Below the pieces are notes generated by a model, which did no database searches, was not told the DNA's origin, and worked only from the letters and a program-made list of their open reading frames with translations. Shown piece by piece: positions 18,393 through 64,000 of a stretch of DNA of 64,000 bases. The DNA comes from Pseudopedobacter saltans DSM 12145 (lineage in GTDB: Bacteria; Bacteroidota; Bacteroidia; Sphingobacteriales; Sphingobacteriaceae), in NCBI RefSeq assembly GCF_000190735.1, contig NC_015177.1:3782001-3846000 (forward strand), in the 5' to 3' direction. Position 1 is the stretch's first letter. Every line of letters begins with the position of its first letter. A program made the translations under genes and the position numbers.

Positions 18393-19427
18393 ATGGAAAA
18401 AATTAAAGCTGGAATTATTGGAGGTGCCGGATATACCGGGGGTGAACTTTTAAGAATATTGGTAAACCATGCGAAAGTAGAAATTGCTTTTGTACATAGT
18501 AACAGTAATGCCGGAAATTTAATTTCAGACGTTCATACTGATTTATTTGGGGATACAGATTTAAGATTCACCGATGTGATTTCGCAGGATATAGATGTCT
18601 TGTTCCTTTGCGTTGGTCATGGTGATGCGAGAAAATTCCTGGAAGCTAATCCGATAAATGATGCCATAAAGATTATTGATTTATCTCAGGACTTTCGTTT
18701 AAAGGCTAAAAGCCAAAAGCCAAAAGCGGAAAGCAATGGACAGGAAAATCAGCCTTCAGCTTTAAGTGTTAAGCCTTCGGCCTTTGTGTACGGTTTGCCG
18801 GAGCTGAACAAAGAATCAATAAAGAAGGCTCATAATATCGCTAATCCGGGTTGTTTTGCTACTTGTATACAATTGGCATTATTGCCTTTGGCAAAAGCTG
18901 GGAAACTGAATAATGAAGTGCACATTGCTGCGACAACGGGGTCTACTGGAGCTGGACAAAAGCCCACTGCGACGAGCCATTTTAGCTGGAGAAACAACAA
19001 TCTTTCGGTTTATAAAGCTTTTGAACATCAGCATTTGAATGAAATAGGTGAGAGCTTACATCAGTTACAACCGGATTTCGATAAAGCCGTCAATTTTATC
19101 CCTTACCGGGGAGATTTTGCCCGAGGCATTATGGCCTCTGTTTATTTAGAAACCGATTTGACTCTGGAAGAAGCAGAGAAAATCTACGAAGACTTTTACG
19201 CCGATGCGCCATTTACGCATGTCAGTAAGCAAAATATAGATTTAAAACAAGTCGTAAATACCAATAAATGCTTACTGCATTTAGAGAAACACGGCAACAA
19301 ATTGATGATTTTGTCTATTACAGACAATTTGTTGAAAGGCGCTTCTGGTCAGGCAGTACAAAATATGAACCTGATGTTTGGTTTTGATGAGAAGGAAGGA
19401 TTGAGATTGAAAGCGGTTAATTTTTAA
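18393..19427 (+). CDS. argC: N-acyl-gamma-glutamyl-phosphate reductase with an in-frame repeat insertion
   Basis: 344 aa. N-terminal Rossmann motif GIIGGAGYTGGELLRIL; catalytic Cys154 in NPGCFATC; C-terminal residues HLEKHGNKLMILSITDN close the domain. It reduces N-acylglutamyl phosphate to the semialdehyde with NADPH. Between DLSQDFRL and FVYGLPELN, which from my knowledge of the family are normally only a few residues apart, lies a low-complexity stretch (about residues 103-131) rich in K, A, S, P and Q. It is encoded by word repeats with inverted ends at 18701-18785. The insertion is in frame and sits between domain elements, so the enzyme may stay active. Confidence 0.96.
   Translation: MEKIKAGIIGGAGYTGGELLRILVNHAKVEIAFVHSNSNAGNLISDVHTDLFGDTDLRFTDVISQDIDVLFLCVGHGDARKFLEANPINDAIKIIDLSQDFRLKAKSQKPKAESNGQENQPSALSVKPSAFVYGLPELNKESIKKAHNIANPGCFATCIQLALLPLAKAGKLNNEVHIAATTGSTGAGQKPTATSHFSWRNNNLSVYKAFEHQHLNEIGESLHQLQPDFDKAVNFIPYRGDFARGIMASVYLETDLTLEEAEKIYEDFYADAPFTHVSKQNIDLKQVVNTNKCLLHLEKHGNKLMILSITDNLLKGASGQAVQNMNLMFGFDEKEGLRLKAVNF
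18701..18785. repeat. Word-repeat element inserted in frame in argC
   Basis: The left part repeats AAAAGCC-type words after AAAGGC (18701-18706). The right part has complementary words (CAGCCTTC, TTAAGCCTTC) and ends in GCCTTT (18780-18785), the exact reverse complement of the left end. A short spacer of about 15 bases separates them. The architecture matches the arrays flanking the S23 genes in this window, but without a gene inside. Confidence 0.7.
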
Positions 19428-19836
19428 GTTGAAGGTTTAAAGTTAAAAGTGGAAAGTTGCAAAATTATAAAGACCTTTTAGTTTGGAGTAAATCGCATGA
19501 GCTGGTTCTAGAAGTCTACAGGCTTACAAAAGATTTTCCCAAAGAGGAAACTTTTGGATTAGTAAGTCAGTTGAGACGAGCAGCGGTATCTATCCCAACA
19601 AATATAGCTGAAGGGTCTGGTAGATTCACGCAAAAGGATTTTGCTTCATTTCTGCAAATATCGTTAGGGTCTTGCCAAGAAGTAGAATATCTTGTATTCT
19701 TAGCTATTGAACTTAAACTTATAACTGAAACTGACTTTGAGCTTATTAATAAATTAATTGGCGAAAACAAGGCAATGCTTATTGCATTAATCAAGAAAGT
19801 CAGACTTTAAACTCTGAACTTTCTACTTTAAACTAT
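19428..19836 (+). mobile_element. S23 gene framed by inverted word repeats, between argC and argD
   Basis: Left array: GTTTAAAGT (19435-19443) then GAAAGTT (19452-19458). Right array: AACTTTC (19817-19823) then ACTTTAAAC (19825-19833), the reverse complements in mirrored order; another ACTTTAAAC overlaps the S23 stop at 19804. The arrays fill the space between the argC stop and the argD start almost exactly. Together with the similar unit at 25403 and the remnant at 56387 this suggests a defined inserted unit. No target-site duplication was identified. Mobility is inference. Confidence 0.5.
19457..19810 (+). CDS. Four-helix-bundle protein, S23 (23S rRNA intervening-sequence) family
   Basis: 117 aa, full length for the family. 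Diagnostic motifs: NYKDLLVWSKSHEL at the start and QLRRAAVSIPTNIAEGSGR at residues about 35-53, then a helical second half. The start is TTG at 19457, chosen because the conserved MxNYKDLxVW opening begins there and no ATG is available. The family is related to proteins found in rRNA intervening sequences and to the Avd accessory protein of diversity-generating retroelements; solo copies have no established function. It interrupts the arg cluster on the same strand between argC and argD. Confidence 0.92.
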   Translation: MQNYKDLLVWSKSHELVLEVYRLTKDFPKEETFGLVSQLRRAAVSIPTNIAEGSGRFTQKDFASFLQISLGSCQEVEYLVFLAIELKLITETDFELINKLIGENKAMLIALIKKVRL

Positions 19837-19843
19837 TAAAAAA

Positions 19844-20974
19844 ATGAAACTATTCGACGTATACCCAATAAATGATATAGAAATTGTAAAAGGCCAGGGA
19901 AGCCTTGTTTGGGACAATAATGGTCAGGAATATTTAGATTTATACGGTGGTCACGCTGTAATATCTATTGGACATACTCATCCTCATTATGTATCGAGGA
20001 TTACAGAACAATTGAATAAAATCGGATTTTATTCAAACTCTATCAGAATTCCTTTGCAAGAACAATTGGCAGAGAAATTAGGAAAGGTTTCCGGAAAAGA
20101 AGATTATCAGCTTTTCTTGTGTAATTCGGGAGCAGAAGCGAATGAGAATGCATTTAAATTAGCCTCTTTTGCTAATGAAAGAAAGAAAATCATAGCATTT
20201 TCCAAAGCATTTCACGGACGTACATCTTTGGCGGTTTCTGCAACGGATAATCCAAAAATTATAGCTCCTGTTAATGAAACAGATAATGTAGTTTTCTTGC
20301 CTCATAATGATATTGAAGCATTGAATAAAGCTTTCGCTGATTTTGGAAATGAGATTTCTTCAGTTGTTATTGAAGGCATACAAGGTGTAGGCGGAATAAG
20401 AGTCGCTGATGTTGAGTTCTTGAAAACCATCCGTTCTTTGTGCGACGAGTATGGCGCTTATTATATCGCCGATTCTATACAGTGTGGATATGGAAGGAGC
20501 GGAAAGTTCTTTTCACATGATTATGCAGGGGTAGATGCAGATATTTATACTATGGCAAAAGGAATGGGAAATGGTTTTCCTATAGGTGGAATAATCATTT
20601 CGCCAAAACTGAAACCTTGGCATGGCATGTTAGGTACAACTTTCGGCGGAAATCACCTGGCATGTGCGGCGGCGTTGGCGGTATTAGAGGTTTTCGAGAA
20701 GAATCAATTGATAAAAAATGCCGAAGAGGTAGGTAATTATCTGATCACAGAATTAAGGAAAATCGACAAGATAAAAGAAGTGCGTGGTTTAGGTTTAATG
20801 ATTGGTGTTGAACTCCCTGAAGAATTAAGCGAGGCAAGAAAGAAACTGCTTTTTGAAGAGCATATATTTACAGGGGAAGCCAAACCAAATGTAATCAGAC
20901 TATTGCCGGCGCTTAATTTGACAAAAGAACATGCCGACAGATTCTTAACCGCATTAAAAAAAGTAATTGAATAA
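19844..20974 (+). CDS. argD: N-acylornithine aminotransferase
   Basis: 376 aa class-III PLP aminotransferase: YGGHAVISIGHTHPHYV at the N-terminus, CNSGAEANENAFKLA phosphate-binding region, and K239 in YTMAKGMGNGFP as the Schiff-base lysine. It converts N-acylglutamate semialdehyde to N-acylornithine with glutamate as donor. The family acts on acetyl- and succinyl-ornithine, so the acyl group is not fixed by this gene. It is 33 bases after the S23 stop. Confidence 0.96.
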   Translation: MKLFDVYPINDIEIVKGQGSLVWDNNGQEYLDLYGGHAVISIGHTHPHYVSRITEQLNKIGFYSNSIRIPLQEQLAEKLGKVSGKEDYQLFLCNSGAEANENAFKLASFANERKKIIAFSKAFHGRTSLAVSATDNPKIIAPVNETDNVVFLPHNDIEALNKAFADFGNEISSVVIEGIQGVGGIRVADVEFLKTIRSLCDEYGAYYIADSIQCGYGRSGKFFSHDYAGVDADIYTMAKGMGNGFPIGGIIISPKLKPWHGMLGTTFGGNHLACAAALAVLEVFEKNQLIKNAEEVGNYLITELRKIDKIKEVRGLGLMIGVELPEELSEARKKLLFEEHIFTGEAKPNVIRLLPALNLTKEHADRFLTALKKVIE

Positions 20975-20994
20975 AATATAAATATAAAAAAATG

Positions 20995-21048
20995 GCAAAG
21001 CTAGTTTTTATCAGCTCATAAAATATGGAAGATAAAAACTAGCTTTGT
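20995..21048. promoter_or_regulatory. Long perfect hairpin between argD and the transcarbamylase gene
   Basis: A 16-bp perfect inverted repeat (arms 20997-21012 and 21031-21046, core AAAGCTAGTTTTTATC) with an 18-nt loop; one further C-G pair extends it at each end. No T run follows on the plus strand, so it is not a standard terminator. It could be an RNA processing or stability element inside the operon, or a palindromic repeat. Confidence 0.6.
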
Positions 21049-21106
21049 TCGTAAATATTAATACCAAATTTTGATTATATAGATCATACCAAAAATTTTA
21101 AAGACC

Positions 21107-22054
21107 ATGAAACTATTCTCTTCTGTACACGATGTTAATGATTTAAATCAACTGGTATCAGAAGCTATCCAGCTTAAAGCATCTCCGTTCGCATTCGAAA
21201 ATCTGGGAAAACATAAAACCATCGGTTTGATTTTCCTGAATCCTAGTTTAAGAACCCGGTTAAGTACTCAAAAAGCCGCAATGAATTTAGGAATGCAGGT
21301 AATGGTGATGAATATGGATAAAGAAGGTTGGGCTTTGGAAACTAGAGACGGTGTGATTATGAACGGCACCACTGTTGAACATATTCGCGAAGCTGCGGGT
21401 GTAATGGGGGAATATTGTGATATCATCGGTATTCGTTCTTTCCCGGGGCTAAAAGACAGAGAAGAAGATTATTCAGAGCTGATTTTTAATAAGTTCGTTC
21501 AGTTTGCAGGCTGTCCGATTGTAAGTTTGGAATCAGCTACCAGGCATCCTTTGCAAAGTTTGGCTGACGTGATCACGATAGAAGAGTTGAAAAAGACGAC
21601 AAAACCAAAAGTCGTTTTAACATGGGCTCCGCATGTGAAGCCTTTGCCTCAAGCGGTAGCGAACTCATTTGCCGAGTGGATGAATAAAGCCGATTACGAA
21701 TTTGTGATTACCCATCCGGAAGGATACGATTTGGCACCAGAATTTGTTGGAAATGCTATGGTTACCAATAATCAGGACGAAGCTTTGGCCGGAGCCGATT
21801 TTGTTTATGTGAAAAACTGGTCGTCTTATAACGATTACGGTAAGATATTGACTGAAGGTGAGGGATGGATGCTGACTAACGAAAAATTAAAGCTGACGAA
21901 TAATGCAGGTGTAATGCATTGTTTACCCGTAAGAAGAGGGTTGGAGCTTTCGCATGAAATCCTTGATGGACCAAATTCATTGGTGCTTAATCAGGCCAAT
22001 AACCGAGTTTGGGCTGCTCAGGCTGTTTTAAAACAAATGCTGGAGGGGAAATAA
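21107..22054 (+). CDS. argF': N-acylornithine carbamoyltransferase (likely succinyl type)
   Basis: 315 aa. Carbamoyl-phosphate binding loop SLRTRLST (residues 47-54) and the C-terminal HCLPVRRG, where ordinary ornithine transcarbamylases have HCLPA; this and Trp75 place it with the N-acylornithine enzymes of Bacteroidota and Xanthomonas. In those enzymes a single residue near position 90-92 is reported to decide between acetyl (Glu) and succinyl (Pro) substrates. Here the aligned residue is Val90 (TTV90EHI), so the acetyl-determining Glu is absent. It carbamoylates acyl-ornithine to acyl-citrulline, so deacylation comes later. Its last base overlaps the first of argB. Confidence 0.93.
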   Translation: MKLFSSVHDVNDLNQLVSEAIQLKASPFAFENLGKHKTIGLIFLNPSLRTRLSTQKAAMNLGMQVMVMNMDKEGWALETRDGVIMNGTTVEHIREAAGVMGEYCDIIGIRSFPGLKDREEDYSELIFNKFVQFAGCPIVSLESATRHPLQSLADVITIEELKKTTKPKVVLTWAPHVKPLPQAVANSFAEWMNKADYEFVITHPEGYDLAPEFVGNAMVTNNQDEALAGADFVYVKNWSSYNDYGKILTEGEGWMLTNEKLKLTNNAGVMHCLPVRRGLELSHEILDGPNSLVLNQANNRVWAAQAVLKQMLEGK

Positions 22055-22845
22055 TGAAACCACTTTGGATTATCAAAATCGGTGGAAATGTCATCGATAA
22101 CCCAGAAGCATTAGATTCTTTTTTAAAAGACTTTTCTGCGTTGGATGGTGCAAAAGTACTCATCCACGGAGGCGGTAAAATAGCCACACAAATAGCTAAA
22201 GGTTTAGGTGTGGAAACCCAAATGGTAAATGGCCGTAGAATCACAGACGCAGAAATGCTGAAAATTGTGACTATGGTTTATGGTGGTTTGGTAAATAAAA
22301 ATGTGGTAGCTAAGCTTCAGGCAAACGGGACCAATGCAATTGGGATGACGGGAGCAGATGGAAATGTCATTAAAGCCATAAAACGTCCGGTAAAAGAAGT
22401 GGACTTTGGATTTGTTGGAGATTTAACAGAAACTTCAATTAACGATACTACTTTGTCGCAGATTTTAGAAGCAGGTTTAATCCCTGTTTTTGCAGCGTTA
22501 ACGCATGATGGAAATGGACAGATATTAAATACAAATGCAGATACTATTGCTTCTGCACTAGCTGTTGGCCTTTCTTCCCGATATGAAACTAAGTTAATTT
22601 ACTGTTTCGAAAAAAATGGAGTGCTAACCGATATAAACAATGACGATTCGGTAATTGCCAAGATAAATCCAGCTTATTTTGAAGAGCTAACTCAACAAGG
22701 AATAATAGCTGATGGCATGCTACCAAAGCTCCAAAATGCATTCGCTGCAATTTCTAATGGTGTAAAAGAGGTTTATATTGGAAATGCAGGCAAATTATCG
22801 GATATTAATCAGGGCAAGGACTTTGGAACTTGTTTGTCTTTATAA
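22054..22845 (+). CDS. argB: N-acylglutamate kinase
   Basis: 263 aa. The start is ATG at 22054, overlapping the previous stop by one base (TAATG) and preceded by GGAGGGG, an unusually good ribosome binding site here; the protein then begins MKPLWIIKIGGNVID. Amino-acid kinase motifs: KIGGNVID, LIHGGGKIATQ, GRRITD, GMTGADG, LNTNADTIASALA and DGMLPKL. It phosphorylates N-acetyl- or N-succinylglutamate. One-base coupling with the transcarbamylase gene implies translational coupling. Confidence 0.95.
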   Translation: MKPLWIIKIGGNVIDNPEALDSFLKDFSALDGAKVLIHGGGKIATQIAKGLGVETQMVNGRRITDAEMLKIVTMVYGGLVNKNVVAKLQANGTNAIGMTGADGNVIKAIKRPVKEVDFGFVGDLTETSINDTTLSQILEAGLIPVFAALTHDGNGQILNTNADTIASALAVGLSSRYETKLIYCFEKNGVLTDINNDDSVIAKINPAYFEELTQQGIIADGMLPKLQNAFAAISNGVKEVYIGNAGKLSDINQGKDFGTCLSL

Positions 22846-22852
22846 TGATAAT

Positions 22853-23509
22853 ATGGCACGGAATATTTTTATTGTATTTTTAGTACTGCTGGGTATAGAT
22901 CTAAGTGCTCAAACAAAATTATCTGACATCAAGGATATCCGTCTGGTTTTTCCTGTAACCTACATTTCGGAAATTCAGAAAGGAAATAAAGCGCAATATA
23001 ATGATTCCTTATCCTTAATTTCGGCACAATTGATTGATAGTATTATTGAGAATTACAATATCGATATCACAGAAAAAAGTAACTTATTAGAAGGTAAGAC
23101 AAGGGTTCAGTATGAAAAAGATGTTGTTGATTTATCGAAGGCTAGTTCTAAATTAAAAAATTTAGAAGAAATTTTAATCCCAGAAAGCCTTTTGGCTGAA
23201 CTACGAAAAAGCACCAAAAAACATCATTTACTAATATTTTCTTCCGGAGTTACAAGGGCTAAGGGAAATTATGGAAAAGAAGTTGGAAAGGGCGTTGCTA
23301 TGGGGATCTTGACAATGGGAATGTATTATCAGGTTCCTATAAAAGGGAATTCGAACGTTCATGCTTTTTTAATAGATAGTGAAAGCGGGAAAGTGCTTTT
23401 TTATAAAAAATCTTTTATTCAGGACAGGGATCCATTAGAACCCAAAGTACTGGAGAAACAATTTAAAGCTTTGTTGAAAGAAAATGCTTCTCTAAAACAA
23501 AACAGTTAA
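22853..23509 (+). CDS. Exported protein of unknown function
   Basis: 218 aa from ATG at 22853, chosen because it begins a clean signal peptide (ARNIFIVFLVLLGIDLSAQ); an upstream extension would overlap argB. The mature part has a glycine-rich hydrophobic stretch (GKEVGKGVAMGILTMGMYY) and a beta segment AFLIDSESGKVLFYKKSF. I do not recognise a family. It is wedged between argB and proC, 7 and 2 bases from its neighbours, so it is cotranscribed with arginine genes without an obvious link to the pathway. Confidence 0.75.
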   Translation: MARNIFIVFLVLLGIDLSAQTKLSDIKDIRLVFPVTYISEIQKGNKAQYNDSLSLISAQLIDSIIENYNIDITEKSNLLEGKTRVQYEKDVVDLSKASSKLKNLEEILIPESLLAELRKSTKKHHLLIFSSGVTRAKGNYGKEVGKGVAMGILTMGMYYQVPIKGNSNVHAFLIDSESGKVLFYKKSFIQDRDPLEPKVLEKQFKALLKENASLKQNS

Positions 23510-23511
23510 TC

Positions 23512-24330
23512 ATGTCAAACAAAAGTTCAATAGCCATTTTAGGCACCGGAAATATGGGAGCGTATATTGCGCTTGGTTTATCCAAATCGGGAATGTGCGA
23601 TCCTGCATCCATTACCCTAACCAGAAGGAATTTGGATGCTTTGGCAGAATATAAATCTCAAGGATTTAATATCAGCAACGATAATGTCGCAGCAGCTAAA
23701 GAAGCGAATATTATTATTTTAGGCGTATTACCTCAGCAATTGAATGAAGTTTTGGATCAGATTGCTCCGGTAGTTGATGAATCAAAGCATTTGATTGTCT
23801 CAATTATTAGCGGAGTATCTTCGGTTGATATTCAAAAAAAGCTGAACAAAAATATAGAAGTCATCAGGGTGATGCCTAATACTGCGATTGCAATAAATCA
23901 GTCTATGACATGTATCGCGGGAGACCATGCAAGCAAGGAAAACATAGAATTGGTAAAAAACATATTTAGTACAGTTGGTGTGGCTATGGTAATCAAAGAA
24001 GATTTAATGCCGGCCGCGACAGCACTTTGTTCCAGTGGGATTGCTTTTTTCTTAAGAACAATAAGAGCAGCAACTGAAGCTGGTGTTCAGATGGGGTTTC
24101 ATTCTCATGAGGCGTTGGAAATGGCATCTCAAACGGTTAAAGGAGCTGCTGATTTACTGATCCAATTAGGAGGACATCCGGAAGTTCAGATAGATAGGGT
24201 TACTTCTCCTAAAGGCTGTACAATAGCAGGATTAAATGAAATGGAACATAATGGATTTAGTTCTGCTTTGATAAAAGGAATAACATTAGCGGGGCAAAAA
24301 GCGGGAAACTTATTAAGTCAAGATAAATAA
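23512..24330 (+). CDS. proC: Pyrroline-5-carboxylate reductase
   Basis: 272 aa. N-terminal Rossmann motif AILGTGNMGAYIALGL, then VIRVMPNTAIAINQSMTCI and the C-terminal signature region SPKGCTIAGLNEME. It reduces pyrroline-5-carboxylate to proline. Placement inside an arginine cluster, 6 bases before the argE-like gene, ties glutamate-semialdehyde use for proline to arginine synthesis. Some relatives in this position could act on pathway side products, but sequence alone supports proC. Confidence 0.93.
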   Translation: MSNKSSIAILGTGNMGAYIALGLSKSGMCDPASITLTRRNLDALAEYKSQGFNISNDNVAAAKEANIIILGVLPQQLNEVLDQIAPVVDESKHLIVSIISGVSSVDIQKKLNKNIEVIRVMPNTAIAINQSMTCIAGDHASKENIELVKNIFSTVGVAMVIKEDLMPAATALCSSGIAFFLRTIRAATEAGVQMGFHSHEALEMASQTVKGAADLLIQLGGHPEVQIDRVTSPKGCTIAGLNEMEHNGFSSALIKGITLAGQKAGNLLSQDK

Positions 24331-24336
24331 TTAGAA

Positions 24337-25404
24337 ATGTCTGTAGATAATTTGTTCGAAGATGCGTTTCAGCTGTTAAAGCAGATGATCGCAATACCTT
24401 CATTTAGCAAAGAAGAAGATAAAACGGCTGACTTGATTCAGGCTTTTTTAATCGAAAGAGGAATTACACCGCATAGAAAAGGAAATAATCTGTGGGTTTT
24501 CAATAGGTATTTTGATGCTTCTAAACCTACTATTCTTTTAAATTCGCATCACGATACAGTAAAACCAAATAAAGGGTATACGAAAGATCCATTCAATCCC
24601 GAAGTTTCGGAAGACGGAAAGTTATATGGTTTGGGAAGTAACGATGCGGGAGGCTGTTTGGTTTCATTAATTGCTACTTTCAGGCATTTTTATGATAGAG
24701 AAGATCTGAAATACAATTTTGTTTTGGCCGCTACGGCTGAAGAAGAAAACTCGGGTAAAGGTGGTTTGGAATCTATTATTCCAGATTTAGGAGAGTGCAG
24801 TTTTGCCATTGTAGGCGAACCAACTCAGATGCACCTGGCAGTAGCCGAAAAGGGTTTGATGGTTTTGGATTGTCATGCAAGAGGAAAAGCCGGGCATGCC
24901 GCCAGAGATGAAGGAGAAAATGCTTTGTATAAAGCTCTGAAAGATATTCATTGGTTTAAAGACTATCAGTTTGAAAAGGTGTCTCCTACCTTAGGACCTA
25001 TAAAAATGTCGGTAACTGTAATCAATACAGGGACTCAGCAACATAATGTCGTGCCAGATCTTTGTTCTTTTGTAGTTGATGTAAGGGTTACAGATACTTA
25101 TACCAACGAAGAGGTTTTGGATGTTATTGAACAACATGTAGATTGCGAGGTAGTGCCAAGATCTATTCGCTTAAAGCCATCGTCAATTCCGATGGATCAT
25201 CCGATAGTTCAGTACGGAATTTCTTTAGGAAGACAAACTTATGGTTCTCCAACAACCTCAGATCAGTCTTTATTAAATATCCCATCCTTAAAATGTGGAC
25301 CTGGTGATTCAGCCAGATCTCATACCGCAGATGAGTTTATTTATGTGGATGAAATTAGAGATGGAATAGAGATGTATATCAAGTTATTGGAAGGAATTAA
25401 TTGA
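24337..25404 (+). CDS. argE: M20-family N-acylornithine/N-acylcitrulline deacylase
   Basis: 355 aa metallopeptidase-like hydrolase. Metal-binding motif SHHDTVKPN (H71 and D73), then GLGSNDAGGC, the catalytic EE pair in TAEEENSGKGG, IVGEPTQ, and SDQSLLN near the C-terminus. It removes the acyl group. Because the transcarbamylase here uses acylated ornithine, the physiological substrate is more likely acyl-citrulline than acyl-ornithine; this is inference from the pathway. Confidence 0.92.
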   Translation: MSVDNLFEDAFQLLKQMIAIPSFSKEEDKTADLIQAFLIERGITPHRKGNNLWVFNRYFDASKPTILLNSHHDTVKPNKGYTKDPFNPEVSEDGKLYGLGSNDAGGCLVSLIATFRHFYDREDLKYNFVLAATAEEENSGKGGLESIIPDLGECSFAIVGEPTQMHLAVAEKGLMVLDCHARGKAGHAARDEGENALYKALKDIHWFKDYQFEKVSPTLGPIKMSVTVINTGTQQHNVVPDLCSFVVDVRVTDTYTNEEVLDVIEQHVDCEVVPRSIRLKPSSIPMDHPIVQYGISLGRQTYGSPTTSDQSLLNIPSLKCGPGDSARSHTADEFIYVDEIRDGIEMYIKLLEGIN

Positions 25405-25483
25405 TTTACGAAGGACAAATTACGATTTTAGAATTGGATTTGCATGATGTCCTTGCTAATCTTGATTCTGAGATCTAAATAAA

Positions 25484-25843
25484 ATGACAAAAGAAGAATT
25501 AATATCAAGATTTAGAGATTTTGCAATAGCAAATGCAGAACTGATAGCTTCTTTGCCATTTAATATTATTAATAAAAACTACAGCAATCAATTAATTAGA
25601 TGCAGTAGCTCTTCCAGTGCAAATTACAGGGCGGCTTGTAGAGCAAAATCAACAGCTGATTTTATCAATAAATTAAAAATTGTTGAAGAGGAATTAGATG
25701 AAACACTTCATTTTCTGGATTTATTGAAGCATTTTAATAATGACTTATCTAGAGAAATAGCCGAATTAGAAAAGGAAGGAAATGAACTGTTATCTATTAT
25801 AGTGTCGGCAATTAATACAATCAGAAATAAAATAAAAACATAA
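25484..25843 (+). CDS. Four-helix-bundle protein, S23 family, second subfamily
   Basis: 119 aa, full length. Recognised by RFRDFAIANAELIASLP, then SNQLIRCSSSSSANYRAACRA at about 44-64 and the acidic ELDETLHFLDLL. This is the ANYRAACRA subfamily, distinct from the NIAEG type at 19457. No catalytic residues are expected; solo members are of unknown function. It sits on the same strand inside the arginine cluster, with about 79 bases upstream and 89 downstream made of repeat words. Confidence 0.92.
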   Translation: MTKEELISRFRDFAIANAELIASLPFNIINKNYSNQLIRCSSSSSANYRAACRAKSTADFINKLKIVEEELDETLHFLDLLKHFNNDLSREIAELEKEGNELLSIIVSAINTIRNKIKT

Positions 25844-25893
25844 CGAATTTTTATACTAAAGATTTGAGGTTTAGATTTGCCCTTTGAAGAATG

Positions 25894-25928
25894 CGTAAAT
25901 CGTAAATCGTAAATCGTAAATCGTAATT
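25894..25928 (+). repeat. 7-bp tandem repeat, five units
   Basis: CGTAAAT repeated four times and a fifth unit CGTAATT, directly before argH. It is the right flank of the S23 unit at 25403-25928. Confidence 0.95.
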
Positions 25929-25932
25929 AAGC

Positions 25933-27264
25933 ATGAAACTGTGGCAAAAAAACACATCGGTAAATAATCAGGTAGAAGTATTCACGGTTGGTCAGGACAG
26001 GGAAATGGACTTGTTTTTGGCTGCTTTTGATGTACTTGGTTCTTTAGCCCATACGAGAATGTTAAATAGCATTGGTCTTTTAGACGATGCGGATTTAGCA
26101 TTGGTACAAAGGGAACTGAAGAATATTTATCAGCAAATTGCCGATGGAAAATTTATCATAGAAGAAGGGGTAGAAGATGTGCACTCTCAAGTGGAGCTAT
26201 TGTTGACTCAGAGAGTAGGAGATGCAGGAAAGAAAATACATAGCGGGCGTTCCAGAAACGATCAAGTGCTGGTGGATTTGAAATTGTTTTTCAGACATCA
26301 GATCGAAGAATTGGTTAAATCTTCAAAAGAACTTTTTGATCTTTTGATAGAGTTAGCGGAAATACACAAAGACAAATTATTGCCAGGTTACACACATTTG
26401 CAGATTGCTATGCCATCATCTTTTGGACTTTGGTTTGGTGCTTACGCAGAAAGTTTAATAGATGATCTGGAGCTTATGCTAGGCGCTTTTAAAGTGACCA
26501 ATAAAAATCCATTAGGTTCGGCTGCAGGTTATGGTTCATCGTTTCCTTTAAACCGTCAAATGACAACGGATTTATTAGGTTTCGAATGTTTAAACTATAA
26601 TGTGGTTTATGCGCAAATGGGACGTGGTAAAACAGAAAGAATTTTGGCACAAGCAATGTCTTCTATCGCGGCAACGCTTAATAGAATGGCTATGGATGCT
26701 TGTCTGTTCATGAATCAAAACTTTGGCTTTATTAGTTTTCCTGATGAACTGACAACGGGTTCAAGCATTATGCCACACAAGAAAAATCCTGATGTTTGGG
26801 AGTTGATCAGAGGAAGAAGTAACCAGTTGCAAGCTTTGCCGAACACAATTTCTATGTTAACAACGAATCTTCCATCAGGTTACCATAGAGATATGCAACT
26901 TTTGAAAGAGAATCTTTTCCCTGCTTTCCAAAGTTTAATGAGTTGTTTAGATATGGCCAAATTGATGTTGAAGAATATCAAAATCAAGGAAAATATCTTA
27001 GATGATGAAAAATACACTTATTTATTTAGCGTTGAAGTTGTGAATAACCTCGTGTTAGAAGGTCTGCCTTTCCGTGAAGCTTATAAAAAGGTAGGTTTGG
27101 ACATTGAGGCAGGACAGTTTAAGACAGACAGAAAAGTAAATCATACTCACGAAGGAAGTATAGGAAATTTGAATTTGAAAGAAGTGAAAACAGCAATGGA
27201 AAAACTTCAGGCGCAATTCAACTTTAATAAAATAGAAAAAGCAATTCAGAATTTAGTTCGTTAG
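25933..27264 (+). CDS. argH: Argininosuccinate lyase
   Basis: 443 aa. Fumarase/aspartase superfamily: VEDVHSQVE, the HSGRSRNDQV segment and signature GSSIMPHKKNPD (catalytic Ser loop). It splits argininosuccinate to arginine and fumarate, the final step. The start follows the 7-bp repeat array by only 4 bases, so the ribosome binding region is made of repeat sequence. A REP palindrome follows the stop. Confidence 0.97.
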   Translation: MKLWQKNTSVNNQVEVFTVGQDREMDLFLAAFDVLGSLAHTRMLNSIGLLDDADLALVQRELKNIYQQIADGKFIIEEGVEDVHSQVELLLTQRVGDAGKKIHSGRSRNDQVLVDLKLFFRHQIEELVKSSKELFDLLIELAEIHKDKLLPGYTHLQIAMPSSFGLWFGAYAESLIDDLELMLGAFKVTNKNPLGSAAGYGSSFPLNRQMTTDLLGFECLNYNVVYAQMGRGKTERILAQAMSSIAATLNRMAMDACLFMNQNFGFISFPDELTTGSSIMPHKKNPDVWELIRGRSNQLQALPNTISMLTTNLPSGYHRDMQLLKENLFPAFQSLMSCLDMAKLMLKNIKIKENILDDEKYTYLFSVEVVNNLVLEGLPFREAYKKVGLDIEAGQFKTDRKVNHTHEGSIGNLNLKEVKTAMEKLQAQFNFNKIEKAIQNLVR

Positions 27265-27342
27265 TTGTCATTGCGAACAAAGTGAAGCAATCTTTTCTAG
27301 GGTTGCCTAATTAAAAGATTGCTTCGTACCTCGCAATGACAA
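27265..27342. repeat. REP-like palindrome
   Basis: Imperfect inverted repeat: TTGTCATTGCGA...GAAGCAATCTTTT on the left, AAAAGATTGCTTCG...TCGCAATGACAA on the right, loop about 17 bases. The same core recurs at 58008, 60661, 60980 and in related form at 62.6-63.4 kb. It may also act as a terminator after argH. Confidence 0.85.
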
Positions 27343-56765: not shown

Positions 56766-57902
56766 ATGAAAGTAGCGTTAATAACAGGTATTACAGGACA
56801 AGACGGAGCATATCTTGCCGAATTTTTGTTAAAAAAAGGATACGAAGTTCACGGTCTGAAAAGAAGATCTTCGCTGTTCAATACAGATAGGATAGATCAT
56901 CTTTACCAGGATCCGCATGAAGAAGGTGTGAAATTGAAATTGCATTTCGGAGATTTAACAGATTCAACCAATCTTATCCGTTTAATTCAGGAAATCCAAC
57001 CGGATGAAATCTATAATCTGGCAGCGATGAGCCATGTGAAGGTGAGTTTTGATACTCCTGAATATACCGCCAACGCTGACGGAATAGGGACTTTGAGAAT
57101 CCTGGAAGCAGTGAGACTTTTAGGCCTGACAAAGAAAACCAGAGTTTATCAGGCTTCTACCTCTGAATTATATGGTTTAGTTCAGGCTGTACCGCAATCT
57201 GAGACAACTCCTTTTTACCCGCGTTCTCCATACGCAGTAGCGAAAATGTATGCCTACTGGATTACTGTAAATTACCGCGAAGCTTATGACATGTATGCTT
57301 GTAACGGTATTTTATTTAATCATGAAAGCCCAATCAGAGGGGAAACTTTTGTGACCAGAAAAATTACCAGAGCTGCGGCTAAAATAGCTTTAGGGCTTCA
57401 AAATTGTTTATATCTGGGAAATCTGTCTGCTCAGCGCGACTGGGGACATGCCAAAGATTATGTAGAAGCCATGTGGTTAATTCTTCAACAAGAAAAACCG
57501 GAAGATTTCGTAATTGCTACCGGCATCACAACAACGGTGAGAGATTTCGTAAGAATGACCTTTGCAGAATTGGGTATTGAAGTGGAATTTAGCGGAAAAG
57601 ATGAACACGAAAAAGGTGTTATTATCGATATTGATACTGAAAAAGTAGCGGAATTAGGCCTTGATCTGGATTCACTAAAAATAGGTCAGACCATTGTGAA
57701 AGTCGATCCTAAATATTTCAGACCAACGGAAGTGGAATTGTTATTGGGAGATCCTACAAAAGCAAAAACGAAGTTGGGATGGGAATTAAAATACGATTTA
57801 CCTGCTTTGGTTAAAGATATGGTTCATTCTGACTTACATTTGATGAAAAAGGACCAGTATTTGAAAAAAGGTGGTTATCAGACCATGAATTATTTTGAGT
57901 AG
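56766..57902 (+). CDS. gmd: GDP-mannose 4,6-dehydratase
   Basis: 378 aa from ATG at 56766, where the conserved [20 protein letters not shown] begins; upstream codons belong to the decayed repeat unit. SDR motifs: [10 protein letters not shown] in [19 protein letters not shown] (Tyr and Lys of the active site) and [16 protein letters not shown]. It makes GDP-4-keto-6-deoxymannose, precursor of GDP-fucose, colitose or perosamine-type sugars. The partner reductase (fcl) is not in view. Confidence 0.96.
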
Positions 57903-58007
57903 GAGTGGTGAACTATACTCTGGGTGGAGTTGAAAAATGTCTGTGTTGGAAAGAGAGCGGAGGCGAGCTGTTTTTATATTGTAAATAAACAAATATAGGT
58001 GGTGTTA

Positions 58008-58079
58008 AGAGATTGCCACGTCGTACCTCCTCGCCAAGACAAAAATGGGGTGTCATTACGAGGAATCGAAGCAATCTCA
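58008..58079. repeat. REP-like palindrome before the export gene
   Basis: Imperfect inverted repeat: AGAGATTGCC...CCTC...AAGACA with TGTCATTACGAGG...GAAGCAATCTC, spacer about 10 bases. Same family as 27265-27342. Confidence 0.8.
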
Positions 58080-58132
58080 TTATCAGAAAACTGTACAGTA
58101 CGAAGATTGTCAAAAGATAATATAATAGATTA

Positions 58133-60652
58133 ATGAATATTCAAAAAGTTGTTTTATTACTAAATGTGTTTATAGCGTTGCAGATTGTAGTTCCGGCAAA
58201 AGCACAGAATATCAACCAACAAAATTTCAGTAATATTCGTGTAGACGAATTAAGTGACGATCAGATTCGCCAGTTTGTAAAGCAAGTTGAATCTTCTGGA
58301 ATGTCAGAAGCACAGCTCGAACAGGTTGCTACGGCAAGAGGGATGTCTTCTTCTGAAATACAAAAGCTGAGACAGCGCGTAGAGAAGATTAAGACACAGG
58401 GAGGTGGAGCAGCATCTGGCACAGCTGGAAAAAAAGAGGCTACCCTAAAAAGTAAAGACGGTAGCAGAAGCCGTTCTTTCGAAGGTGAGGTAGATTCATT
58501 AAGTAAATCCGATAGTAAAAAATCGGAATCCGAAGCGGAAATTGCTTTGGCTTCTTTAAGATCTAAAATCTTTGGCAAAGACCTTTTTGCCAATTCATCT
58601 ACCACATTTGAACCAAATTTAAGATTAGCAACTCCCCTGAATTACGTTATTGGTACCGGAGACCAGATCCTGATTGATATATATGGCTATTCGGAAGTCA
58701 GCTATCAGCTGGAGGTCAGTCCCGAAGGTAATATCAATATCCCTTATGCTGGGATTGTTCCAGTTTCCGGCTTAACTGTAGAGGCAGCAACATCAAGAAT
58801 TAAAGCGAAGCTATCACCTATTTATACCGGCTTGAAATCCGGAAATACGAAATTAAGCGTGGCCATAGGCGATATCCGCAGTATCAAAGTTATTTTAACA
58901 GGAGAAGTAACAAAACCAGGAACCTATACACTTCCTTCTTTGGCGACGGTATTCAATGCCTTGTATTCTTCTGGCGGGCCCACAGAAAATGGTTCATTCA
59001 GGGCTATCGAAATTATCAGAAATGGCAAGAAAATAGCTACACTGGATGTTTATGACTTCCTGTTGAAAGGAGATTTAAAAAATAATATCCGGCTTCAAGA
59101 TCAGGATATTGTCAGAATACCTACCTATATTAACCGGGTAGAAATAGTTGGTGAAGTTAAACGACCAGCTATTTTCGAAATGAAATCAGGTGAAAATTTG
59201 CAGGATCTGTTAAATTTTGCAGGAGGGTTTACAGAAAGAGCTTATCAGGCCAGGATAAAAGTCTTGAAAAACACATCAACTGAAAGAAAAATTTCTGATG
59301 TTGTTGCTGATGCTTTTTCTACTTATAAACCGCAATCCGGGGATAAATTTTTTGTAACGGAAATTTTGGACAGATTTGAAAATCGGGTTTCTGTAGAGGG
59401 AGCCGTTTTTAGGCCAGGCCAGTATGAATTAACTCCCGGACTAACGGTTAAGCAGCTATTGCAAAATGCGGAGGGACTGAAGGAAGACGCCTTTAAAACA
59501 AGAGCGTATATTACCAGACTGACTCCTAAAAATGATACAGAGATCTTGTCGGTGAATCTGGATAGAATATTAAACGGAGCTGATCCCGATGTGACTTTAA
59601 AAAGAGAGGATGTTCTTTATGTATCTTCAATATTTGATTTAAGAGAACAATATAACCTGACTATCGAAGGAGAAGTGCGGAATCCGGGTACCTTTGATTA
59701 TGCAAAAAATACCAGTCTGGAGGATTTAATCATCCAGGCGGGAGGTTTTAAGGAATCGGCTACACCGAAAAGAATTGAGATATCACGGAGAGTGATTAAT
59801 CAGGACAGTGTTGCTGCTTCAGCGACTGCGAAAACAGCTGATGTATTTCAGATCGATGTAAACAGAGATTTAAGTAGTGTAGCTTCTAAATTTATATTAA
59901 AACCATATGATATTGTTGTGGTAAGAAGTGCTCCCGGTTACGAAGTTCAAAAAATGGTTAGGGTGGAAGGCGAAGTGCTCTATCCGGGTACTTACAGTAT
60001 CACAAGAAAGGATGAGCGTATTTCTGATCTGATAAGAAGAGCAGGTGGCCTGACTCAGTTGGCTTATCCTAAAGGGGCATCATTGAAAAGAGAGGGTATT
60101 ATTCAAAATCAACTGGATAAAGAAAAGGAAGAAATTAAGGTTGAGCAATTTAAAAAGTCACAGAAAGATGCTAAGGATACCCTGAACATGGAGCTGAATA
60201 ATAAGGTTCTTAGAAATAGTTTTGTGGGAATAGATTTAGAGTCTATATTGGATAAACCAGGAAAACGTACCGATTTATTTTTGGAAGAAGGGGATATCAT
60301 CTCGATACCAAAAGAACTCCAGACCGTTAAGGTGAGCGGCGAAGTGCTTTCTCCAAATACCGTATTATATAAGAAATCAAAAAACTTTAAACAATATATC
60401 AATCAGGCGGGAGGATTCTCTCAGAAGGCTTTACGTTCCAGGTCTTATATTATGTATGCGAATGGATCAGTAAGGAGTACCAAGAAATTTTTATTTTTTA
60501 ACAATTATCCGGTAGTAACTACAGGTTCGGAGATTTTTGTGCCTAAAGAAGAAGAGAAGAGAAAAATGACTGCAGGGGAAACTGCAGCTTTAATTTCAGG
60601 AATGGCCTCTGTTGGAGCAATTCTTCTGGGGGTTATGAATCTGATAAAGTAG
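58133..60652 (+). CDS. Wza-type polysaccharide export protein with multiple SLBB domains
   Basis: 839 aa. Signal peptide (VVLLLNVFIALQIVVPAKA), a long charged linker, a polysaccharide-export domain (about 165-245, YVIGTGDQILIDIYGYSE) and six SLBB-type repeats recognisable by VxxxGEVxxPGTY variants (GEVTKPGTY, GEVKRPAIF, GAVFRPGQY, GEVRNPGTF, GEVLYPGTY, GEVLSPNTV). It ends in a hydrophobic helix (AALISGMASVGAILLGVMNL). Such proteins form the outer-membrane channel for capsule or exopolysaccharide. More SLBB repeats than in Wza, as usual in Bacteroidota. Confidence 0.93.
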   Translation: MNIQKVVLLLNVFIALQIVVPAKAQNINQQNFSNIRVDELSDDQIRQFVKQVESSGMSEAQLEQVATARGMSSSEIQKLRQRVEKIKTQGGGAASGTAGKKEATLKSKDGSRSRSFEGEVDSLSKSDSKKSESEAEIALASLRSKIFGKDLFANSSTTFEPNLRLATPLNYVIGTGDQILIDIYGYSEVSYQLEVSPEGNINIPYAGIVPVSGLTVEAATSRIKAKLSPIYTGLKSGNTKLSVAIGDIRSIKVILTGEVTKPGTYTLPSLATVFNALYSSGGPTENGSFRAIEIIRNGKKIATLDVYDFLLKGDLKNNIRLQDQDIVRIPTYINRVEIVGEVKRPAIFEMKSGENLQDLLNFAGGFTERAYQARIKVLKNTSTERKISDVVADAFSTYKPQSGDKFFVTEILDRFENRVSVEGAVFRPGQYELTPGLTVKQLLQNAEGLKEDAFKTRAYITRLTPKNDTEILSVNLDRILNGADPDVTLKREDVLYVSSIFDLREQYNLTIEGEVRNPGTFDYAKNTSLEDLIIQAGGFKESATPKRIEISRRVINQDSVAASATAKTADVFQIDVNRDLSSVASKFILKPYDIVVVRSAPGYEVQKMVRVEGEVLYPGTYSITRKDERISDLIRRAGGLTQLAYPKGASLKREGIIQNQLDKEKEEIKVEQFKKSQKDAKDTLNMELNNKVLRNSFVGIDLESILDKPGKRTDLFLEEGDIISIPKELQTVKVSGEVLSPNTVLYKKSKNFKQYINQAGGFSQKALRSRSYIMYANGSVRSTKKFLFFNNYPVVTTGSEIFVPKEEEKRKMTAGETAALISGMASVGAILLGVMNLIK

Positions 60653-61210
60653 GTTTTTTTGAGATTGCTTCGTTCCTCGCAATGACAAAAATCGGGGGGT
60701 ATTGCGATGAGCGAAGGGATAGTTTGTGTGTAAGAGCGAAGTGGCAATCTCCATTGTCAATTATCAATTGTTTGTAGTCTTTCGTTCGCCGAGTAACGAA
60801 TAACAAGAAGGGACCAACGACTAAGGGGATCGCGTCAGGCTGGTTAGGATAATAGGATTTTTGGACTAGTGGTCACATTGAGGTTCTCGAAATGTAGTGC
60901 GTTAGAGAATAGGGGCTATTTAAAGATTTTATTAGTAACCTGAGTCCGATTATAAAAAGGCTATGAGAGTTTGTCAAAAGAGATTGCTTCGTTCCTCGCA
61001 ATGACAAAAATCGGAGGTCATTGCGATGAGCGAAGTGATAGTTGGTGTGTAAGAGCGAAGTGGCAATCTCCACTGTCAATTATCAATTGTTTGTAGTCTT
61101 TCGTTCGCCGAGTAACGAATAACAAGAAACGCCAACGACTAACAGGATTCTGTCAGGCTGGTTAGGATAATAGGATTTTCGAAACAGCTTTAAAATTTAA
61201 TCATATAAAG
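60653..61210. repeat. Duplicated repeat region between export gene and UDP-sugar dehydrogenase
   Basis: No gene. A block of about 200 bases at 60661-60859 is repeated at 60980-61178 (offset 318-319). Each copy holds a single REP arm (GATTGCTTCGTTCCTCGCAA), a second conserved unit starting ATTGCGATGAGCGAAG and ending GAGCGAAGTGGCAATCT, the words CTTTCGTTCGCC / AACGAATAAC, and GGCTGGTTAGGATAATAGGA. About 120 bases of unrelated sequence lie between the copies. Confidence 0.85.
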
Positions 61211-62509: not shown

Positions 62510-62580
62510 TTCCTATCGTTCATAGTTGTTCGTCTTTCGTCTTTCGTTTGTCGTTCCTCTCTTTCGAGTAGCACACAACC

Positions 62581-62992
62581 TTTCGCGTCATTGGGATGAG
62601 CGAAGCGTTAGCTTGTGTACAGGAGCGAAGTGGCAATCTTCATTGTCAATTGTCCACTGACCATCGTCAATTGTTTGCCGTCTGAATCACGGATTATGTT
62701 GATTAAAAGATTTCACGGAAACTGTTGTTTGTCGTCTTTTGGGTAGCGCACAACCTTTCGCGTCATTGGGATGAGCGAAGCATTAGCTTGTGCATCGGAG
62801 CGAAGTGGCAATCTTCATTGTCAATTGTCCACTGACCATCGTCAATTGTTTGCCGTCTGAATCACGGATTATGTTGATTAAAAGATTTCACGGAAACTGT
62901 TGTTTGTCGTCTTTCGGGTAGCACACAACCTTTCCCGTCATTGCGATGAGCGAAGCGTTAGCTTGTGCACAGGAGCGAAGAGGCAATCTCTT
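62581..62992. repeat. 175-bp tandem repeat, two full copies and a partial third
   Basis: Copy starts at 62581, 62756 and 62931, each with TTTC(G/C)CGTCATTG. Each contains the unit ending GGAGCGAAG(T/A)GGCAATCT. The period is 175 bases exactly and the copies are nearly identical, so the amplification is recent. The third copy stops after the first 62 bases. Confidence 0.92.
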
Positions 62993-63320
62993 TCGTTCAT
63001 CGTTTACCGTCTTTCGTCCATCGACCAACGAAAAACGAATATCGAAAGACGATCCCGGTCCCCGGACATTAAAACAAACTATTTCAATCCCCATAAAAAT
63101 TATGTAGTTTTGCCAGCGATTAATTTCGTCGTATGTCGTTCATCGTTTGCCGTCTTTCGTTTATCGACCGACGAATATCGGATATCGAAAAACGACCGAC
63201 GAATATCGATCCGCTAACAACGAAAAACAAACACGATCAACGAAGAACCAAAAAGATTGGAGACATGAAAATAAACGAGTGTAACGATCAACGAATATCG
63301 ATAAGCCAAGCCCTCTTTTC

Positions 63321-63377
63321 TTGTCATTGCGATGAGCGAAGCGTTGGTTTTTGTAGAGGAGCGAAGTGGCAGTCTCT
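63321..63377. repeat. REP-type unit
   Basis: TTGTCATTGCGATGAGCGAA to GGAGCGAAGTGGCAGTCTCT, the same unit as at 60701, 61017, 62587, 62762 and 62937. Confidence 0.85.
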
Positions 63378-63468
63378 TATAATAGAAATTGAGAGATAGG
63401 ACGTGAAACGAGAGGATAAGTAAGTGATGACCAACGATCAACGATAATTAAATAACGAGCATCGATCA

Positions 63469-64000
63469 ATGAGCAATAGTCAATCGAATAACGAACAACG
63501 AATAACGAACAACGAAGACGAAATCTCTTTAAAGGAACTCATCCTTAAAATTAAAGAATGGATTTCCTATTTATGGTCTAAGAAATGGACTATCATCATT
63601 GCAGGTATTATAGGCGGTGCTTTGGGACTGGCTTATTCCTTTATTAAAAAGCCAATATATACAGCAACTACAACATTTGTTTTAGAATCGGGCGAAAAAG
63701 GCGGAGGCCTGGGAGCTTATGCAGGTCTGGCTGCAATGGCAGGTATAGACCTGGGCGGCGGCGGAGGCGGTATCTTTCAGGGCGACAATATTCTGGAATT
63801 ATACAAATCCCGCTCTATGGTGGAGAAAGCTCTTCTGGATACAGTAGATATTGGCGGTAAAAAAACATCACTTATAGACCATTATGTTGAGGTTAACAAG
63901 CTAAGGGAGAAATGGAATCAAAAGCCGGAAACTAAAGATGTGGTGTTTAACGCAGAGCCTAATCGCATTAAAGATTCCCTGATGACGGATATTATTTATG
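63469..64000 (+). CDS. Polysaccharide chain-length determinant (Wzz/Wzc-type), 3' end outside the window
   Basis: Open from ATG at 63469 to the window end (177 codons). After a polar N-terminus comes ELILKIKEWISYLWSKKW, then a transmembrane helix TIIIAGIIGGALGLAYSF and the periplasmic start PIYTATTTFVLESG, the usual Wzz layout, with a Gly-rich loop (GIDLGGGGGG). It would control glycan length together with the Wza-type exporter. The first 16 or so residues (SNSQSNNEQRITNNED) are encoded by the word repeat itself, so an internal or later start is conceivable. Confidence 0.85.
   Translation, partial: MSNSQSNNEQRITNNEDEISLKELILKIKEWISYLWSKKWTIIIAGIIGGALGLAYSFIKKPIYTATTTFVLESGEKGGGLGAYAGLAAMAGIDLGGGGGGIFQGDNILELYKSRSMVEKALLDTVDIGGKKTSLIDHYVEVNKLREKWNQKPETKDVVFNAEPNRIKDSLMTDIIY

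Follow-up and report, generated by a model that had tools for sequence, protein, structure and literature searches.

Two small genes for S23 four-helix-bundle proteins lie among the arg genes of Pseudopedobacter saltans DSM 12145, each framed by short words that mirror each other. What are these units, and what does the protein have to do with the words? To our knowledge, S23 has no known function and no known catalytic site. We consider it probable that each unit is a minimal mobile-type element, in which a pentameric S23 would read its own heptad array and a putative enzyme would move the unit.

The two S23 units of the arg cluster

The window is the whole 64,000-nucleotide stretch analysed. 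An earlier note had described mirrored words framing both arg-cluster S23 genes, and the letters at both loci were as described (Table 1). Inverted alignments joined 19436-19472 with 19805-19840 for element 1 (score 42), and 25397-25435 with 25890-25930 for element 2 (score 40). Read as its reverse complement, the word AATTACGATTT (25418-25428) recurs without mismatch at 25918-25928, on the other side of the second S23 gene. The arrays, said to fill the arg gaps exactly, nearly do so between argC and argD and occupy only part of the argE-argH gaps.

Table 1 Features of the two S23 units and their neighbours in the window.
Feature	Coordinates	Strand	Remarks
argC, upstream neighbour of element 1	18393..19427	+	stop abuts left array; putative name, from the earlier note and reading of the protein
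Left heptad array, element 1	19428..19456	+	GTTGAAG GTTTAAA GTTAAAA GTGGAAA GTT; directly 3' of argC stop
S23 four-helix-bundle gene 1	19457..19810	+	117 aa, TTG start
Right heptad array, element 1	19804..19834	+	AACTCTG AACTTTC TACTTTA AAC; inverted relative to left; overlaps S23 stop codon
argD-type aminotransferase, 3' neighbour of element 1	19844..20974	+	putative name; marker for orthologous gaps
Left arm, element 2	25398..25432	+	TTACGA/TTACGATTT words
S23 gene 2	25484..25843	+	119 aa, divergent subfamily
Right heptad array, element 2	25893..25930	+	(TAAATCG)n, reverse complement of left words
argH, 3' neighbour of element 2	25933..27264	+	putative name

Between the arms in the window, S23 was the sole ORF of at least 80 aa. 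Both proteins passed the curated cut-off of Pfam PF05635 (134.3 and 40.9 bits, cut-off 33.8) and scored 129.7 and 65.6 bits with TIGR02436, and the first matched structure 2gsc (E 4e-20). Apart from S23, the models listed for the two proteins were Avd-type, PRK12275 ‘hypothetical protein’, or weak ones that stayed below cut-off, and there was no transposase among them. On its own, the first locus showed modest complementarity (z 2.0 over dinucleotide shuffles); of the eight S23 loci of the P. saltans genome, only three reached z of at least 3.

Inverted arms at S23 loci and control genes

The framing of S23 by inverted short-word arrays is real and general, and extends far beyond this genus. 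The comparison of S23 flanks with shuffled and non-S23 controls, suggested earlier, showed an excess over both: by local alignment against shuffles, z was at least 3 at 58 of 106 S23 loci and at 2 of 361 control genes from the same genome as the S23 loci, with none among the 53 controls of similar size. The other 48 S23 loci stayed below z 3. A second set, fetched separately, gave 41 of 71 loci (71 of the 80 named loci were testable). Half of its tested loci with titles outside Bacteroidia (7/14) were positive, from Ignavibacteriae, Acidobacteriaceae, Anaerolineaceae, Clostridia, two Desulfo- groups and Fibrobacter; many of the loci outside Bacteroidia come from metagenome bins and may have been binned wrongly. 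Complementary arms were also found at 8 of 14 S23 loci from cyanobacterial plasmids (14 fetched of 34 records with S23), and a search of phage records with a single S23 query found nothing at E 1e-5. Left and right arms were alike in inverted rather than direct orientation in 47 of 58 cases, while a direct-orientation match with z of at least 3 occurred at 21 of the 106 loci.

Two other measures were discarded. Exact 8-mer sharing between flanks placed 50 of 361 controls above its threshold; it was too noisy, and local alignment against shuffles took its place. An unguided scan for inverted pairs over 464 kb of this genome gave 87 matches against 83 in the mirror control, so that only word-array matches picked by eye were kept.

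Inverted framing as such is not peculiar to S23; the period of 7 is. Within the genus, z of at least 3 was also reached at GIY-YIG (11/25), PDDEXK_3 (8/23) and DUF559 (2/8) loci, the testable part of 30, 30 and 22, with other repeats. As carriers of the same arms these genes were rejected: they have their own repeats, and none of their 112 flanks held a period-7 array. The S23 arm words are mainly heptads, about four to five per arm. Mean scores at period 7 were 9.3/9.8, compared with about 4-6 at other periods and 4.5/5.1 in controls; the second set gave 14.4/12.8, and about 4-7 at other periods. Period-7 arrays clustered close to S23, with 29 (69 loci) and 33 (71 loci) in the nearest 200-nt bins of its two flanks, 0-8 in each other bin and two inside S23. 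The count of five heptads per arm depends on the method: consensus extension gave five (27/84 and 26/85) and periodicity length four (30/84 and 23/85). The period of 7 is absent from the earlier note's description.

Words, S23 type and co-change of the arms

The words varied from locus to locus, and with S23 type and species, and matched within a locus. Each S23 subfamily had been credited with its own word set, and word likeness indeed tracked S23 identity, also across unshared sites (111 of 177 loci, those with a heptad array). For loci without a common neighbour gene, word similarity of at least 0.7 was lowest at 20/1029 and rose with S23 identity, reaching 33/212 at 55-65% and 9/18 at 65% or more (17 loci). 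With shared-neighbour pairs removed, the Mantel r was 0.193 (0/300 permutations), host phylogeny being only partly controlled. A looser different-site rule, which admitted adjacent gaps of one operon and pairs sharing an upstream gene, gave 0.213 (0/300 permutations); the trend thus persisted after removal of shared neighbours.

At the same site, the two arms change together. For same-site pairs with S23 identity below 0.6, the match of the arms within a locus exceeded both like-arm matches in 58 of 75 pairs (75 of 106 S23 loci, with both arms intergenic).

An RNA stem could produce such arms: they would pair in the operon transcript, S23 would be looped out for processing by RNase III, compensatory change would keep the stem, and S23 would be carried along as a selfish gene, like the ORF of 23S rRNA intervening sequences. 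The inverted arms at over half of the loci fit this, as does the fact that both units of the window, and several on plasmids, run in the same direction as their two neighbours. Passages in PMC4990558 describe the Coxiella intervening sequence, whose S23 ORF lies in a stem of 28-bp terminal repeats that RNase III cuts. However, in-register pairing was barely above that with heptad order shuffled (7.69 vs 6.63; 19/32 loci; Wilcoxon p 0.02), so that arm likeness is mainly at the level of words, which weakens the case for strict stem pairing as the only cause. Moreover, some loci have arms in direct orientation and two armed S23 units are antisense to both flanking genes. We regard the RNA stem as an unlikely, though conceivable, explanation.

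Gain, loss and inheritance

Mobility, which the earlier note offered as an inference, found partial support. In Nostocales plasmids, S23 and both arms were present or absent as a unit between related operons. A 5-bp target duplication was found at two of six compared empty sites (GTAAT and TTCTA, both in one S23 subfamily), and a third matched in four of the five letters; at the remaining three, where the best relatives were 86-92% identical, it was not readable. In Bacteroidota, by contrast, the S23 sites look mostly inherited vertically. S23 trees (101 of 106 proteins) follow site, and the argC-argD S23s form nearly one clade, so the argC-argD insertion is not a recent jump, and mobility in this lineage is old or rare. 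Comparing arg clusters with and without the insert, another step proposed earlier, yielded an empty argC-argD gap in a congener (G014) and no readable target duplication.

Broken S23 copies exist, as do word-only copies without S23, including some in congener gaps, which share words with the S23 units. Together with the inverted ends and the two duplications, such copies would suit an ordinary MITE or IS remnant, with S23 as a passenger on non-autonomous copies whose arms a conventional transposase recognises in trans. Terminal inverted repeats are indeed common to IS/MITEs and S23 units. Yet the full-length elements of the window have no transposase ORF, a conventional family has a single end sequence whereas S23 words vary, and S23 is the gene common to units in widely separated bacteria. 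We consider a remnant of this kind very unlikely.

Away from S23, 14 period-7 arrays were found in 464 kb of this genome. They resembled its own S23 words (six of eight loci usable) at 0.740, against 0.657 for foreign sets (sd 0.036; 2/200 as good). S23 was present in 232 of 296 sampled Bacteroidota genomes; the AACT heptad family occurred in 117 of these and in 6 of the 64 genomes lacking S23 (Fisher 3.5e-10), and was absent from the other 115 with S23, this being one word family counted.

Solitary arrays and arms that change together would also be expected from slippage with template switching. Short inverted repeats close to a weak spot would then grow by heptads during replication, each correcting the other, and S23 genes would merely be tolerated in such hypermutable spots. 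A passage of PMC4679880 cites the idea that 7-nt units reflect the footprint of a polymerase. Slippage leaves unexplained the preference for S23 over size-matched genes and framed nucleases, the word-protein correlation, the target duplications and the co-occurrence of S23 with heptads, and we judge it quite improbable.

Comparison with known systems

In REPIN-RAYT systems, one protein goes with a dispersed family of palindromic repeats of its own, and protein and repeat co-diverge. The S23 units are similar in that the dispersed solo arrays match the flanks of the resident S23. Their protein is a helical bundle and not a Y1 transposase, and their repeats are heptad arrays; the RAYT/REP-like pairing once proposed is an analogy only, because S23 is no transposase. 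Avd of diversity-generating retroelements forms a pentameric bundle of helices and acts together with nucleic acid. Its sequence relation to S23 is distant, and Avd models stayed far below cut-off (26 vs 80 bits for S23 protein 1; bAvd 19.7 vs 40).

A close description in the literature concerns 23S rRNA intervening sequences of Coxiella and Leptospira, which in passages of PMC4990558 likewise have an S23 ORF, a unit of some 430 nt and terminal inverted repeats, are proposed as selfish elements, and have an ORF already suggested to play a role in mobility. Units of the window type lie outside rRNA, both window units being located between protein-coding arg genes and not in a 23S rRNA gene. They differ further in having tandem heptads with locus-specific words as arms, solo word copies, and 5-bp duplications at two sites. 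On a cautious view, the S23 heptad unit could be a variant of the intervening sequence.

STRR are tandem heptamer repeats. Known heptamers include TAACTGA in Beggiatoaceae, Cyanobacteria and Bacteroidetes (PMC4679880), and GGGAATC in Xanthomonas and GGGGA(T/C)T in Nostoc (PMC4692102). As far as these accounts go, they are tandem 7-nt units, mainly intergenic and with varied words, like the S23 arms, and inverted heptamer pairs are reported in Xanthomonas (PMC4692102). Their origin is left unexplained there, and neither main text contains the terms S23 or four helix. A literature search apparently returned no paper linking S23 with heptamers.

A proposed minimal element and its meaning

In the minimal element that we favour, the S23 gene would be the single-gene core of a unit of about 400-530 bp, made of a heptad array, S23 and an inverted heptad array, and placed between genes, often inside operons. 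The solved Xanthomonas S23 protein is a homopentamer according to a passage of PMC4990558. Such a ring may bind its own array, perhaps with one heptad per subunit, and may pair the two arms as an RNA hairpin or a DNA synapse; the net charge of S23 averages only +1.8. A putative enzyme supplied in trans would copy or paste the unit, and S23 would be its specificity factor, not its catalyst. In the lineage of the window, most copies would have been resident and inherited for a long time, with arms that still turn over.

A wider reading is offered tentatively, as a possibility that we rate somewhat below even. S23 rings may read a heptad code, with one subunit per 7-nt word and five words per arm, and code and protein would co-evolve. 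The orphan heptamers of cyanobacteria, Xanthomonas, Beggiatoaceae and Bacteroidota might then be footprints of this code, rRNA intervening sequences a branch of the same element, and Avd an S23 that retroelements recruited from this element.

The link between S23 and heptamers ties together two old puzzles, the very common S23 proteins that lack a known function and the heptamer repeats described so far without a factor. Since it is drawn from position, period, word-protein correlation and joint gain and loss, it gives both a testable function. No element class known to us combines a ring protein that is not an enzyme with tandem-heptad ends specific to each locus, and for this reason we regard the S23 unit as a new one. 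If this holds, this mobile-type element would end in a tandem code that diversifies and matches the protein, in place of a fixed sequence, and rRNA intervening sequences, possibly also Avd, could join one family with it.

S23 genes and their flanking heptads

The S23 genes of the window, which code for small four-helix-bundle proteins, lie in the argC-argD gap (first locus) and the argE-argH gap (second locus). The earlier note had described repeats on both sides of each gene, and the sequence bore this out. The host genome (one contig, 4.6 Mb) had eight S23 matches. All 18 genomes searched in the genus, this one included, were positive, with 1–10 matches each, and S23 was present in 232 of 296 sampled Bacteroidota genomes.

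Features of the window
Feature	Position	Remark
S23 gene, first locus	19457-19810	passes Pfam PF05635
S23 gene, second locus	25484-25843	passes Pfam PF05635
AAAAGCC heptad array	18700-18734	within the argC reading frame
CGTTCGT / CGAACAA-type heptad arrays and TCATTGCGA-type repeats	62515-63516	about 1 kb, no S23
Hairpins of the TGTCATTGCGA...GAAGCAATCT repeat family	27265-27342; 57900-58140; 60640-60900	
Control gene with z of at least 3	58133-60652	

Self-similarity at lags 4–12 had a single main peak at 7 and a small one at 8. At lag 7 it was 9.3 (left) and 9.8 (right) in the first locus set, versus about 4–6 at other lags, and 14.4 and 12.8 in the second set, versus about 4–7. Around the 71 loci of the second set, the first 200 nt held 29 period-7 arrays upstream and 33 downstream, all other 200-nt bins 0–8 each, and S23 itself two. 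The number of heptads per arm, the array on one side of S23, is method-dependent: the mode was four by periodic-stretch length (left 30/84, right 23/85) and five by consensus extension (27/84 and 26/85), with a steep drop at six (5 and 6 loci).

Arm complementarity against controls

We aligned 130 nt upstream of each gene to the reverse complement of 170 nt downstream and scored the match against dinucleotide shuffles (z). Complementary flanks, for which the earlier note had proposed shuffled and non-S23 controls, were indeed commoner at S23 loci. Among 106 distinct loci, z was at least 3 in 3/8 of the host genome, 41/68 congeneric and 14/30 from the phylum, versus 2/361 control genes of the host genome and 0/53 size-matched controls (80–170 aa). 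Hairpins of the TGTCATTGCGA...GAAGCAATCT family appear to account for one of the two positive control genes. Taken singly, the first window locus had a z of 2.0. Arms aligned in direct orientation reached 3 at 21/106 loci.

A second, separately fetched set of 80 named loci gave 41 positives among 71 tested. Seven of the 14 tested loci titled outside Bacteroidia were positive, from Ignavibacteriae (L267), Acidobacteriaceae (L294), Anaerolineaceae (L295), Clostridia (L307), Desulfosoma (L314), Desulfobacteraceae (L315) and Fibrobacter (L317). On cyanobacterial plasmids 8/14 were positive; in four of the six below 3 (L324, L325, L327, L330) the right array already includes the S23 stop codon, and the downstream alignment stretch therefore begins too late there.

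Genes of the window's genus encoding GIY-YIG, PDDEXK_3 and DUF559 proteins were also repeat-framed (z of at least 3 in 11/25, 8/23 and 2/8), and none of their 112 flanks had period-7 arrays. Several families thus share the inverted framing but not the period of seven. By eye (L158–L187, L188–L217, L218–L239), these small nuclease families were framed by directly repeated tRNA-like 3' ends or GCGGAGTCGAAG (GIY-YIG), CTCTGTGACCTC and GATTTCACAGA (PDDEXK_3/GxxExxY), and CCCTCTCC/GGAGAGGG (DUF559). In congener G001 (contig 1, about 2472620–2476509) several equal-scoring GIY-YIG matches stood in tandem, with the same tRNA-like 3' end in both flank sets read.

Words, arms and the S23 protein

The pattern of three AACTNNN followed by AACT occurred in 117/232 S23-bearing versus 6/64 S23-lacking Bacteroidota genomes (Fisher 3.5e-10), and within one family (f17) in 21/50 versus 1/14 (p 0.013). 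Away from S23, 464 kb of the host genome held 14 period-7 arrays, versus 0, 2, 0 and 4 at periods 5, 6, 8 and 9. These solo arrays fitted the genome's own S23 words, taken from the six usable of eight loci, better than they fitted foreign sets (2/200 as good). Since one array lies within argC, word arrays can lie in frame in a conserved gene.

Heptad profiles of the two arms agreed at 0.71 inverted, 0.41 direct and 0.35 between loci, the inverted reading exceeding the direct in 47/58 loci. Shuffling the heptad order lowered the in-register match from 7.69 to 6.63 (observed higher in 19/32 loci, Wilcoxon p 0.02). Arm likeness is mainly at the word level, less so in an exact stem.

Among locus pairs without a common neighbour gene, word similarity of at least 0.7 was found, by rising S23 identity, in 20/1029, 132/2349, 194/1779, 33/212 (55–65%) and 9/18 pairs (at least 65%, drawn from 17 loci). 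Word and protein similarity correlated (Mantel r 0.193, 0/300 permutations as good, host phylogeny only partly controlled), also after removal of pairs inside the window's genus (r = 0.189).

Same-site comparisons and the window's genus

At the same site, we compared the fit of a left arm to its own right arm with that to like arms of other species. The own arm fitted better in 58/75 pairs below 60% S23 identity, 7/23 at 60–75% and 4/46 above 75%.

In the genus, nine of 17 argD loci had an S23 unit (S23 with both arms) in the argC-argD gap, with three word types (G000, G002; G001, G005, G007; G008, G009, G016, G017). G003, G004 and G006 had a non-S23 CCTCACCC hairpin, the gap was empty in G014, and argD did not adjoin argC in G010–G013. 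A tenth argC-argD S23 (L156) came from another genus of the family. Among 14 argH loci, G000 and G017 had S23, G016 had a word-only hairpin, and G001, G003, G004, G005, G008 and G014 had other ORFs (read directly at five loci, the rest assigned by sequence likeness); at five, the argE-type gene did not adjoin. Named by eye, the argE-argH contents by species (L055–L062) were Fic-type proteins, an ORF6N-like protein, S23 and a word-only hairpin.

In a third gap, from thiolase to acyl-CoA dehydrogenase (names by eye; 13 congeners), S23 with GAACAAGG-type words occurred in G001, G005 and G006, and such words without S23 in G000. G003, G004, G007, G014 and G017 had other word-only hairpins, G002 and G016 the CCTCACCC type, and G008 nothing; in G009 the contig ended.

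The S23 tree (few columns, quick method, midpoint root) followed site, with the argC-argD S23s within a group of 13 holding only three others. Units in the genus therefore look mainly inherited, with arms turning over in place and occasional jumps and losses. At an agmatine deiminase-type site (L005), the right array appears to extend into the start of the downstream coding sequence, so that part of that protein's N-terminus may be encoded by the element.

Gain and loss on cyanobacterial plasmids

The Nostoc plasmids pC052_D and pNsp_a had S23 with GAGTCAG-type arrays in one gene junction (broken copy in pNPM1), and this unit was missing there in five relatives. A different S23, with GGGAAAA arrays, was found in the next junction along in pNsp_c and was missing in all six relatives read there. 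The first junction of pNsp_a read GG[TTCTA]-element-[TTCTA]GTTATG versus GGTTCTAGGTTATG. A conjugation-gene junction had AAAAA[GTAAT]-element-[GTAAT]TAAC in Trichormus and Scytonema versus AAAAAGTAATTAAC in N. linckia, whose flanks there were 98.8% identical to Scytonema. The pNsp_c junction had 4/5 letters of such a duplication; at the Aulosira, Calothrix and N. edaphicum sites the unit was missing in relatives and no duplication could be read. The same plasmids carried word-only hairpins and, by eye, a truncated S23. Plasmid units split CRISPR operons between cas6 and cas4 twice and cmr2 and cmr3 once (L320, L322, L326).

Possible mechanism

Heptamer repeats are already known, without an assigned factor: TAACTGA in Beggiatoaceae, 15 Cyanobacteria and 5 Bacteroidetes (PMC4679880), and GGGAATC in Xanthomonas campestris, where 70 inverted pairs are reported (PMC4692102). 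The terms S23 and four helix are absent from both main texts, and passages of PMC4907049 do not mention S23. Among the matches listed, titles and abstract beginnings of the open-licence literature gave no S23-heptamer link. According to PMC4990558, S23 occurs within rRNA intervening sequences, and the Xanthomonas S23 structure is a toroidal homopentamer of four-helix bundles (citing Lin 2006). The two matched solved S23 entries have five chains each. Set beside arms of four to five heptads, the five-fold ring suggests that each subunit would read one heptad, in RNA or in single- or double-stranded DNA. Because S23 has no known catalytic function, the cutting or copying enzyme would be supplied from elsewhere.
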